The notes: a model not told the origin generated them from the sequence alone. Positions 4,064-7,915 are shown, numbered from the stretch's first letter. The stretch is 64,000 bases of DNA from Candidatus Nitrosopumilus sp. (GCA_029250275.1 JAPFBP010000001.1:118210-182209), one strand, 5' to 3'. Numbers and translations are program-made.

Positions 4064-4645
4064 GTGAAAAAGATAGAGGCTATAATTAAACGAAAAAATT
4101 TTCCTATAATTAAAACAAATTTGAATGCAGTTGGCACATACATTATTGATAAACGAAATTTGGATGATAGCCATATTTACGATGAGTCGCGAGGTTCTCG
4201 TGTAGGTTCAACTAGTTTAAAGTCAATACCTCTAGCAAAAATAGAAATTGTAGTTTTAGATAAAGATGCAAGAAAAGTTGTTGAACTGATTTCAAAAAAT
4301 TCTGGTTTGTCATCAAATCATGGAGGCAAAATCTTTGTTTCTGAAATGGAAGAAGTTGTAGACATGGAAACTCTTGACGGACAACAAGATCTTGAAATAT
4401 ATTTAGATGAAAAATTAGGATCAAAACCATTACCAAAGCGTAGTAGATTTGTTCCATTACAAAAATTTACTTTACATAAATTACAAGTAACATATGAAGA
4501 GAATAAAGAATCACTTCGAAACGATTATCGAATAAAATCTTTTAGTGATTTTGTAAATTATTGTATTATGAAATCTATCCCAATTTTGGAAAAACAACTA
4601 AAAAATCCTACAATTGTTTATGAAAATAATTTTGGCAATTTTTAA
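4064..4645 (+). CDS. Divergent PII-like (GlnB/GlnK superfamily) protein with about 80-residue C-terminal extension
   Basis: KKIEAIIKRKNFPIIKTNLNAVG ... LAKIEIVVLDKDARKVVELISKNSG...GGKIFVSEMEEVVDMET matches PII core pattern; next to canonical PII and amt. Confidence 0.65.
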   Translation: MKKIEAIIKRKNFPIIKTNLNAVGTYIIDKRNLDDSHIYDESRGSRVGSTSLKSIPLAKIEIVVLDKDARKVVELISKNSGLSSNHGGKIFVSEMEEVVDMETLDGQQDLEIYLDEKLGSKPLPKRSRFVPLQKFTLHKLQVTYEENKESLRNDYRIKSFSDFVNYCIMKSIPILEKQLKNPTIVYENNFGNF

Positions 4646-4738
4646 TTAATAATATCCGTTAAACAAAGCTAATCCTACCAAAGTCATACCAATTGTTGCA
4701 AGTGTTAACTTTGCAATCATAATTTTAGATATTTTCAT
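4646..4738 (-). CDS. 30-aa single-TM microprotein MKISKIMIAKLTLATIGMTLVGLALFNGYY
   Basis: Manual translation; start overlaps stop of the upstream 42-aa ORF (ATGA). Confidence 0.5.
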   Translation of the reverse strand: MKISKIMIAKLTLATIGMTLVGLALFNGYY

Positions 4739-4863
4739 ATGGATAAACCAAAAATGATGGGTCCTACAATTACCCCGACTATTACTGCAATCTTGAGATA
4801 ATCTTTACCGTGAAGTGGTTGCATCTTCTTTCTATGAAATAATTTACTTTTACGCAGATTCAT
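4735..4863 (-). CDS. 42-aa microprotein with C-terminal TM, MNLRKSKLFHRKKMQPLHGKDYLKIAVIVGVIVGPIIFGLSI
   Basis: Manual translation; basic N-term plus hydrophobic C-term; lies 9 bp after the PII stop on the same strand. Confidence 0.5.
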   Translation of the reverse strand: MNLRKSKLFHRKKMQPLHGKDYLKIAVIVGVIVGPIIFGLSI

Positions 4864-4872
4864 GATGATTAC

Positions 4873-5202
4873 TTAGATTGTTTCTTCCCCTTCATTACCT
4901 GTTGCAATGTCTATTGAACGTAAGATTTGTGAAACAAAAATTTTACCTACTCTTCCTTTATCTTTGATAATGCCTATTACTTCGTCTTCTTTTGTATCTG
5001 CAATTATGACTTCTAATTGATATTTGTCATTAAATTGAGGAACAAAAATCGCACTTCCTTTTGATGCGTGAATTTCAGGACCTGGTCTCTTTCCTCTTCC
5101 TCTGACTTTGACAACTGTGAGGCCACCTATGCCTATTTTTTTTAATCCTTCACTAATTGCCATTACGTCATTTTCTCCAAGTATAACTTGTATTTTGAGC
5201 AT
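4873..5202 (-). CDS. Nitrogen regulatory protein P-II
   Basis: 109 aa, LKIQVILGENDVMAISEGLKKIGIGGLTVVKVRGRGKRPG...GRVGKIFVSQILRSIDIATGNEGEETI. Confidence 0.93.
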   Translation of the reverse strand: MLKIQVILGENDVMAISEGLKKIGIGGLTVVKVRGRGKRPGPEIHASKGSAIFVPQFNDKYQLEVIIADTKEDEVIGIIKDKGRVGKIFVSQILRSIDIATGNEGEETI

Positions 5203-5252
5203 TTAGTTATTGTAATTTCAATTACACAAATATAATTTCTGCTTTTGATAGT

Positions 5253-5269
5253 CAAATGATAATCATTTG
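5253..5269. promoter_or_regulatory. 17-bp perfect palindrome CAAATGAT-A-ATCATTTG in the PII/amt divergent intergenic region
   Basis: Read directly; about 50 bp from both start codons. Confidence 0.45.
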
Positions 5270-5318
5270 TTAATCAAATTTAGACATTGTTATTAATTCT
5301 AAATCAATATTCTTTTCA

Positions 5319-6647
5319 ATGGTACTTGATTCTGGAGACACAGCATGGATGCTTGTTGCTGGAAGTCTTGTATTGCTTATGATCCCTGCTCTAGGTCTGT
5401 TTGAATCAGGACTTTTAAGAAAAAAGAATGCAACTTCTATTTTCATGCAAATTTTCTTTGGTCTGGCAATGTTGAGTGTCATGTGGTTTATTTTTGGATT
5501 TAGTTTATCTTTTGGAGAGTCCACTTTGGGGTTGGTCGGAAATCTAGATTGGGTTTTTCTCAAAGGAATTCCATCTAATGCTCCATTAGAACAATATGCT
5601 CCAACAATTCCTGGTATGTTATTTGTAAAATTTCAATTAATGTTTGCAGCAATTACTCCGCTATTACTTACAGGAACAATTGCTGAAAGAATGAAGTTTA
5701 GTTCATTTGTTATATTTATTGCAGCATGGTCTATGCTAATCTACTACCCTCTTGTTCATTGGGTTTGGGGTGGAGGTTGGTTGGCACAATTTGGTGTAGC
5801 TGACTTTGCCGGTGGCATTGTAATTCACACTAGTGTGGGAATGGCAGCGTTAGCTGCAGCACTAGTACTTGGTAAGAGAAGACATTATGGTCCTGCAATA
5901 ATGATTCCTCATAGTATTCCACTAGCTGTACTTGGTTCTTCTTTATTGTGGCTTGGTTGGTTTGGATTTAATGCTGGAAGTGCTCTTTCTGCATCTGGTG
6001 GAGTCGCAGGAAATACTGTAATTGTAACTCACATGGCATCTTCAATTTCTGCTTTAATTTGGGCTGGTCTTTCTTGGATAAGAACAGGAAAGCCATCTGT
6101 TATTGCAACAATTAACGGTGCAATTGCAGGTCTTGCAGGAATTACACCTGCATCTGGATTTGTTAGTGTTGAACATGCATTTGTTATTGGAATAGCTATT
6201 GGTGTTCTCTCATACTCTGGAGTGGTGTTATTCAAAGAAAAACTAAAGATTGATGATGCACTTGATGTCAGCTCTGTTCACGGAGTTGCAGGTATTGTTG
6301 GTGCACTAGCAATTGGTATATTTGCAAGCAGCGTAATTAATCCTGGAGGACCTGACGGACTGCTCTTTGGAAATCCTGATCAATTATGGATTCAAGCTGT
6401 AGGTGTTGGTGTTGCAGGTGCAATGGGCTTTGGTGGAACTTGGATAATTTTACAAATAATGAAACATCTAATTGGAATTAGGGTTTCACCTGAAGTAGAA
6501 GACATTGGTTTGGATATCAGTGAACATGCAGAATCTGCTTATTCTGATGAAGAAGAGTTTATGTTAGATATGGATGATTATACAGATGAGTTACAGGATA
6601 AAGATGAAATCTTATTCAAAAAGAAATATTCTGGTAAGAAACAATGA
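5319..6647 (+). CDS. amt: Ammonium transporter with acidic C-terminal tail
   Basis: DSGDTAWMLVAGSLVLLM, HWVWGGGWL, DFAGGIVIHTSVGMAAL, WFGFNAGSA, DDALDVSSVHGVAG. Confidence 0.96.
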   Translation: MVLDSGDTAWMLVAGSLVLLMIPALGLFESGLLRKKNATSIFMQIFFGLAMLSVMWFIFGFSLSFGESTLGLVGNLDWVFLKGIPSNAPLEQYAPTIPGMLFVKFQLMFAAITPLLLTGTIAERMKFSSFVIFIAAWSMLIYYPLVHWVWGGGWLAQFGVADFAGGIVIHTSVGMAALAAALVLGKRRHYGPAIMIPHSIPLAVLGSSLLWLGWFGFNAGSALSASGGVAGNTVIVTHMASSISALIWAGLSWIRTGKPSVIATINGAIAGLAGITPASGFVSVEHAFVIGIAIGVLSYSGVVLFKEKLKIDDALDVSSVHGVAGIVGALAIGIFASSVINPGGPDGLLFGNPDQLWIQAVGVGVAGAMGFGGTWIILQIMKHLIGIRVSPEVEDIGLDISEHAESAYSDEEEFMLDMDDYTDELQDKDEILFKKKYSGKKQ

Positions 6648-7009
6648 CTGTTAATTATGATGAACTATCAAAACAAGTTCTTGATTTAGATACTCAAGTT
6701 AGATTTGCAGGTGTTGCAAATAGTAAAGGTGTGATGATTGCTGGTGGCCATAAAGAGAATATAGAAAAAATCTTAGATGGTGATAATGTTAACATGTCAA
6801 TTCACTATGCATTACAAAAAAGAGATCTTTATACAAATTTAGCATATAAAATTGGTTCAGAACTATCATCAATAACTGAATATGAAAAAGTTACGATGAT
6901 TAGTATTCCAATTAATTCTAATGAATTGTTTATGGTTAGTACAGAACCAAGAACAGATTATTTAAAAATTATTGATTTTATTTATTCTGCTATAAATTCT
7001 CAAAAATAG
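6644..7009 (+). CDS. DUF6659-like (possible roadblock-fold) protein
   Basis: QVRFAGVANSKGVMIAGGHKE...EKVTMISIPINSNELFMVSTEPRTDY; ATGA overlap with amt. Confidence 0.6.
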   Translation: MTVNYDELSKQVLDLDTQVRFAGVANSKGVMIAGGHKENIEKILDGDNVNMSIHYALQKRDLYTNLAYKIGSELSSITEYEKVTMISIPINSNELFMVSTEPRTDYLKIIDFIYSAINSQK

Positions 7010-7044
7010 AGCCAATTTAGGCATGAAATATCTAATTTTTCATA

Positions 7045-7692
7045 TTAAGTAATACTGGAATTATTTTTTTCTTTTAACTTCAAAATACTATAATCGTATT
7101 TCTTTTTCATTTCAATAGAACAAAATTGTGTAAATTTGTATTCCTCAAAGTCTTTTAAAATTCCATACAAATTACTACCAATAACCATACTATTTTTTGG
7201 ACAAAATGAATTAATCTTAAAACATCTATTCACTGTAGGTCCAAAAACATCTGATATGTTGGAAGTAGTGCTTTCAGCTACCTTTACTGAACCACACGTA
7301 ACACTAATTTTGTAATCTAATCCATCTATATTTTTTGCATTAAGTTCATTTTTTAATTCGTCATGAGATTCAATCATAGATAAACAACATTCTAACATGT
7401 TTTTCATTGCTTCAGAATCAAGAGAATCAATATTTGGAAATCTAAACATTAAAGCATCTCCAATATTTTTTATCACTTTACCATTATATTTATGAATAAT
7501 TTTTGCCATAAAATTTAGAAAAATTTCATACATTTTAGAAACATCATCATCTGATAATTTAGATGATATTATAGTAGAATCTGTCATATCAACTACACCT
7601 ACACAATCATTTTGTATACGTTGAGAAAACTTTAGCAACATATCACCTTCAATTTTTGCTGAGTGGAGCATTACCATTGTTGGTGATGTCAA
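7045..7692 (-). CDS. Class III adenylate/guanylate cyclase domain protein
   Basis: CVGVVDMTDSTIISSKLSDDD...YNGKVIKNIGDALMFRFP...YKISVTCGSVKV...DVFGPTVNRCFKI; start may be internal. Confidence 0.85.
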   Translation of the reverse strand: MTSPTMVMLHSAKIEGDMLLKFSQRIQNDCVGVVDMTDSTIISSKLSDDDVSKMYEIFLNFMAKIIHKYNGKVIKNIGDALMFRFPNIDSLDSEAMKNMLECCLSMIESHDELKNELNAKNIDGLDYKISVTCGSVKVAESTTSNISDVFGPTVNRCFKINSFCPKNSMVIGSNLYGILKDFEEYKFTQFCSIEMKKKYDYSILKLKEKNNSSIT

Positions 7693-7915
7693 AAGTAAAG
7701 AACAACGTTCTGTTGATTTTACTACTACAGTATATGATAATCCTGAAAAAACATCTCATGCAACTTATACAAATCCAGCTCAAAGACTAACAACATATTA
7801 CGAATTAATGCTATTCATTATTCTTGTTCCAGGTATAATGTTCATCATTGCATTTGCATGGTTAAAGAAAAAACCTAAAATCAAAGATGAAACATCAGGC
7901 GCTGTAAAAATCTAA
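7625..7915 (+). pseudogene. N-terminally truncated membrane protein remnant
   Basis: Open frame ...AEWSITIVGDVKSKEQRSVDFTTTVYDNPEKTSHATYTNPAQRLTTYYELMLFIILVPGIMFIIAFAWLKKKPKIKDETSGAVKI* with no ATG/GTG/TTG between the upstream TGA (7622) and the TM segment. Confidence 0.55.

Follow-up and report, generated by a model that had tools for sequence, protein, structure and literature searches.

A candidate PII-RHH regulator and its putative operator at the PII and low-affinity Amt genes of Nitrosopumilus and related archaea

The 64,000-nucleotide stretch of Candidatus Nitrosopumilus sp. analysed here (GCA_029250275.1, JAPFBP010000001.1:118210-182209; hereafter the window, with positions counted from its first letter) contains, between positions 4064 and 7692, a group of genes centred on an extended PII-like protein, named PIIx (4064-4645, + strand, GTG start; Pfam P-II, E 6e-10), a GlnK-like PII signal protein (4873-5202, - strand; Pfam P-II, E 6e-14) and its partner, the ammonium transporter Amt (5319-6647, + strand; Pfam E 2.5e-114). 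A preliminary description of this DNA had read the locus as a candidate 3.6-kb ammonium-sensing module that also comprised two membrane microproteins, a DUF6659-like protein and a class III nucleotidyl cyclase, with glnA upstream. Every gene that it named is found in its place by open reading frame (ORF) calls and Pfam families, but their orientations imply four or more transcription units, namely PIIx (+), PII-mp2-mp1 (-), Amt-DUF6659 (+) and the cyclase (-).

The PII protein had been called canonical; it is a member of the PII family, but its B-loop is two residues shorter than that of E. coli GlnK and it lacks residues aligned with R101 and R103. Its orthologues are present in 67 of the 121 genomes of the taxonomic family that were searched. 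The paralogue pattern and the PII gene beside it place the window Amt in the low-affinity Amt1 clade (PMC4836417, PMC7490402): window-type Amts share at least 75% identity, versus about 46-48% for the paralogue, and PII genes are described near low-affinity Amt in related archaea (PMC4836417). Genome G008 of genus g9 encodes three Amts with 77, 68 and 48% identity to the window Amt, a set from which we identify it, provisionally, as Nitrosotalea devanaterra, which has two low-affinity and one high-affinity Amt (PMC4836417). In N. maritimus, ammonia starvation is reported to lower expression of the low-affinity amt gene, which deep-ocean lineages lack (PMC7490402).

PIIx is composed of a PII domain (residues 1 to about 104), a variable linker and a C-terminal domain (CTD, residues about 123-182) resembling a ribbon-helix-helix (RHH) domain, as delimited by Pfam, an alignment of 48 sequences and an AlphaFold2 model. 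The Pfam P-II match covers residues 44-101 (39.8 bits against a cut-off of 25 bits), and the C-terminal 90 or so residues are left unassigned. The linker varies in length among the aligned sequences and the CTD is their most conserved part. In the model, a PII fold (predicted local distance difference test, pLDDT, about 90) that matches archaeal GlnK structures (E 4e-8) is followed by a disordered linker (residues 105-121, pLDDT below 50) and by a three-helix CTD (pLDDT 86-94). Among the ATP/2-oxoglutarate residues Q39, K58, K90, R101 and R103 of GlnK structures, K90 alone is kept, and the lack of residues aligned with the other four makes classical 2-oxoglutarate/ATP sensing doubtful. Another PII gene is nearly always found beside PIIx. 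For most genera it is the convergent PII of the PII-Amt pair; genus g17 has another PII gene there, likewise convergent, and a second family, f2, has a PII-like gene downstream. A second PIIx paralogue (L088, G041:C70; 205 residues, about 40% identity) lies about 4 kb from a glnA homologue (49%).

The CTD (4430-4642, + strand; KRSRFVPLQKFTLHKLQVTYEENKESLRNDYRIKSFSDFVNYCIMKSIP...) corresponds to the last 70 residues of PIIx, which are its best-conserved part in f2 as well as in seven genera of the window's own family. It is homologous to stand-alone archaeal proteins of 57-81 residues (hhalign E 1e-10), and also to the N-terminal part of a protein of about 132 residues that is widespread in the family. 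The stand-alone relatives display an RHH-like pattern, composed of a short strand (e.g. KSITV), a helix A and a helix B starting with SFS; their RHH_5/RHH_1 Pfam matches (E 0.035-0.07) are under the curated cut-offs, and profile alignment with genuine PF01402 members by hhalign is in register but weak (E 0.013). The helices of the CTD are confidently predicted and R126 and R128 are nearly invariant; the AlphaFold2 monomer has no strand, which would require a dimer. In the attempt to confirm an RHH fold, sequence searches of the PDB returned no useful match, and those of Pfam and NCBIfam were sub-threshold or empty. The CTD is therefore described as RHH-like and not as an RHH domain. The widespread small proteins related to it (L186, L187, L304-L311; 57-81 residues, and about 132 in the fused form) share its RHH-like character and have no significant Pfam family.

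The 116-bp intergenic region between the divergent PII and Amt genes contains three 9-bp palindromes, TGATWATCA, in 11-bp steps starting at 5246, 5257 and 5268: box 1 (TGATAGTCA, 5246-5254), box 2 (TGATAATCA, 5257-5265), which is central and the most conserved (its columns average 0.90 identity among 12 genomes of the genus), and box 3 (TGTTAATCA, 5268-5276). They sit inside a 35-bp imperfect palindrome (5244-5278) and fill the space between two TATA-like elements, recognized by their position: the likely PII core promoter (5228-5241, - strand; AAATATAATTTCTG on the + strand), invariant in the 12 genomes, and the likely Amt core promoter (5286-5298, + strand; ATTGTTATTAATT), which is nearly invariant. 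At least one box with 8 or more of 9 matches is present in 42 of 43 PIIx-adjacent PII/Amt intergenic regions, and such boxes are spaced by 11 bp in 39 pairs and by 22 bp in 6, any other spacing occurring at most 3 times. A box pair is matched in 43 of the 121 genomes, versus none for the reversed control sequence. When a wider regulon was sought in the genome of the window, no second site with one mismatch or fewer was found; all the sites other than this locus have 3 mismatches. The array is a predicted operator, of the tandem palindromic kind that RHH proteins often have, and it co-occurs with PIIx.

This co-occurrence can be followed across the family. With presence of the boxes defined as a score of at least 15/18 over the box pair in the PII/Amt promoter, they are found at 47 of 53 loci of PIIx-positive genomes and at none of the 12 loci from PIIx-negative genomes in which this Amt is retained. 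The lineages behind these counts are not independent, so that more weight is given to how genes and boxes are arranged than to the numbers. The PIIx gene of genus g17 adjoins a different PII gene and is far from PII/Amt1 (244 kb in G017 and 730 kb in G034, both single-contig genomes); the boxes remain at PII/Amt1 in 7 genomes, with 16-18 of 18 matches (0 of 300 shuffles). Ten genomes of genus g9 have PII-PII-Amt1 with neither PIIx nor boxes. In family f2, a PIIx about 35% identical adjoins its own Amt, with weaker box pairs (15-16/18) near both genes; because f2 lies outside the family, loss of PIIx in g9 is the simpler history. Two genomes with a divergent PIIx (G111 and G116) have boxes of the TGTATAACA / TGTATTACA type with the 11-bp period kept, which would fit a joint change of the protein and its site. 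An additional box pair about 80-90 bp upstream of PIIx, in genus g19 and at locus L075, suggests that PIIx may control itself. All the PIIx-less genomes checked in g1, g14, g18 and g19 (27/27) also lack Amt1.

About 60 neighbourhoods were compared by mapping the window proteins onto them, and the order PIIx> PII< Amt> is retained in six genera, namely g1 (the window's own), g4, g14, g18, g22 and g19, the last with a wider gap; at L074 and L075 the parts are retained and rearranged. Synteny, which the preliminary description had proposed as a check, thus holds for PIIx with PII and Amt, and the conserved core of the locus is PIIx together with the PII/low-affinity-type Amt pair, the extended PII being its key part.

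The other genes are largely genus-level accessories or lack synteny in most relatives. The microproteins mp1 (30 residues, 4646-4738, - strand) and mp2 (42 residues, 4735-4863, - strand), both predicted to be membrane proteins, lie 3' of PII and are coupled by an ATGA overlap. They are genuine genes under selection, as indicated by their conservation among 13-14 genomes of the genus and by their ratios of nonsynonymous to synonymous polymorphism (pN/pS), which are 0.30 and 0.31; the corresponding values of PIIx, PII and Amt are 0.20, 0.17 and 0.08. The pair is present in nearly all g1 loci but nearly confined to that genus, mp1 alone occurring in some g19 and g22 loci, so that it is a genus-level accessory. 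The DUF6659-like gene (6644-7009, + strand; PF20364, E 2e-7) overlaps the Amt stop by 4 bp, as had been noted, but outside g1 and g19 no Amt is followed by it, and DUF6659 as a family is matched 13 times in this genome. The archaeal extension of the PII-Amt pair that had been proposed is therefore retained for PIIx, and not for the microproteins, the DUF6659 gene or the cyclase.

The cyclase (7045 to about 7677, - strand; PF00211, E 5e-11) is present, although the TTG start assumed for it at 7692 is doubtful and ATG 7677 or 7671 is likelier. Apart from the window, two close relatives alone have it adjoining Amt-DUF6659 in this order; a rearranged copy and one distant locus also have it nearby, and this genome has three PF00211 matches. 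Synteny thus speaks against it as a part of the module. Its 5' end is antisense to an ORF remnant (7648-7915, + strand) that resembles the C-terminal portion of a longer L039 protein, the N-terminal part being gone, which suggests a recent rearrangement beside the cyclase. Cyclase-like genes (31-41% identity) are found within about 2 kb of PII-like genes in several relatives (L048, L082, L091 and L092), which may be a coincidence. The glnA gene (667-2112, + strand; Pfam Gln-synt_C, E 3e-118) is nearby in four g1 genomes only and is likewise removed from the module. A universal stress protein gene (2324-2745, + strand) is apparently frameshifted: ORFs of 54 and 86 residues overlap in different frames, and the longer one matches only the C-terminal half of Pfam Usp.

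From these sequence comparisons we propose, and consider likely, that PIIx regulates the transcription of PII and Amt as a one-component PII-RHH protein acting at the box array. A PII-type sensor domain would be followed by a flexible linker and an RHH-like DNA-binding domain. As the presumed binder of the three TGATWATCA boxes, which are spaced by 11 bp and separate the divergent core promoters, PIIx would set the transcription of both arms: PII (here with the microproteins) and low-affinity Amt (here with the DUF6659 gene). It would mainly repress when ammonium is short; repression under shortage is favoured, by a small margin, over activation under ammonium sufficiency because the array abuts both TATA-like elements, RHH regulators are usually repressors and low-affinity amt expression is reported to fall under starvation. 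Since PIIx has no equivalents of Q39, K58, R101 and R103, the signal may reach it through the neighbouring PII protein or through another ligand, and the nearly constant presence of another PII gene alongside makes the former attractive. Three boxes would fit three RHH dimers, and hence two PII trimers, which is a speculative piece of arithmetic. In the complete scheme, which is offered as a possibility rather than as a probable arrangement, PIIx itself would be the transcription factor, with two PII trimers and three RHH-like dimers on three boxes. Hetero-interaction with the adjacent PII would gate it, and it would serve ammonia-oxidising archaea as an ammonium-status switch devoted to their low-affinity transporter.

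Several observations, besides the non-independence of the lineages, weigh against PIIx as the regulator that binds the boxes. RHH membership of the CTD does not reach significance, either in Pfam, where the matches are sub-threshold, or by profile comparison (E about 0.013), and Foldseek with the CTD model found no match in the PDB or a viral library. Box-like scores of 14-16 arise elsewhere by chance, and the PIIx-negative genomes that serve as the cleanest control all belong to a single genus (g9). At PII/Amt the boxes are degenerate in two g17 genomes that do have PIIx (G076 and G082), and a PIIx-negative genome that is 96% complete (G088) has a partial box. In the PIIx gene of G046 (L047, G046:C1:522625-523203), codon 152, which encodes arginine in relatives, is an in-frame TGA that removes the last helix, while the frame beyond is intact; G046 is probably N. 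maritimus SCM1, in which case the model strain may have a broken PIIx. Finally, small RHH-like proteins are encoded elsewhere in these genomes, and another protein could be the binder.

This last point leads to the alternative that we take most seriously, although we regard it as unlikely: the boxes would be bound by another, stand-alone transcription factor, and the CTD would contact protein partners (Amt, PII or that factor) and not DNA. The weak RHH assignment of the CTD and the abundance of its stand-alone relatives in these genomes are in its favour, as is a small RHH-looking gene between PIIx and PII in G076, G082 and G106. This ORF of about 55 residues (MSDRITILLDNDLTKQLRQIQAKM...SFSYVLNLAVKEGLP; loci L081, L084 and L085), which has no Pfam match, occupies the gap between PIIx and a divergent PII and has a box pair of the TGATWATCA type upstream. 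However, the boxes are gained and lost together with PIIx, as shown by their absence from g9 and by the trans arrangement of g17, and they stand beside PIIx in the second family f2 too.

The locus could also be an ordinary GlnK-Amt system, where PIIx, which does have a PII fold, would be a second GlnK whose T-loop blocks Amt, and the palindromes would be unrelated promoter sequence. This pairing is textbook, and PII beside low-affinity Amt is already described in these archaea (PMC4836417), yet such a reading, which we judge very improbable, leaves unexplained a conserved domain of 70 residues, the exact 11-bp repeats and their absence where PIIx is absent. We give the least credit of all to the original proposal of one multi-component ammonium-sensing complex formed by PIIx, the microproteins, the DUF6659 protein and the cyclase: the microproteins are under selection in an apparent operon with PII, the DUF6659 gene overlaps the Amt stop, and the 61-residue sP36 mediates the GlnK1-AmtB1 interaction in Methanosarcina mazei (PMC10714827), but cyclase and glnA are not syntenic, most genera with PIIx-PII-Amt have neither the microproteins nor DUF6659, and DUF6659 matches are numerous in this genome.

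The proposed regulator shares features with several known systems. NikR combines an RHH domain with a ligand-binding domain, and PIIx would be similar in its proposed one-component design of small DNA-binding domain and ligand domain and in the palindromic predicted operator; it differs because its sensor is a PII domain, its DNA-binding-like domain is C-terminal and it has no link to nickel. MetJ, CopG and Arc-type proteins are RHH repressors, with which it shares short tandem palindromic boxes on one face of the DNA and, possibly, a strand-helix-helix pattern, whereas membership of the CTD is not significant by sequence and its helix A region is about 10 residues longer. In cyanobacteria PII-PipX-NtcA also passes PII information to transcription (PMC7344720), but through separate partner proteins, while PIIx carries its DNA-binding-like domain on the same chain as the PII domain. 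A PII gene beside amt and the PII fold recall GlnK-AmtB, in which PII blocks the Amt pore and which has archaeal precedent (PMC3831643, PMC8395244); here, however, the genes are divergent, they share an operator-like array, there is a second, extended PII, and both PIIs lack R101/R103 equivalents. The microproteins may be compared with the small archaeal protein sP36 associated with GlnK1/AmtB1 (PMC10714827). That protein has 61 residues and shuttles between cytoplasm and membrane, unlike the two predicted membrane proteins of 30 and 42 residues found here.

A search of open-access papers yielded no earlier description of this operator, or of a PII protein that contains a DNA-binding domain, RHH or other. 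If the proposal is true, a PII domain joined directly to a DNA-binding domain would, to our knowledge, constitute a new link from PII to transcription. The joint loss of PIIx and low-affinity Amt fits the reported absence of the transporter from deep-ocean lineages (PMC7490402). The locus provides a candidate regulator, operator and target genes for ammonium uptake in very abundant archaea, which can be tested in vitro.

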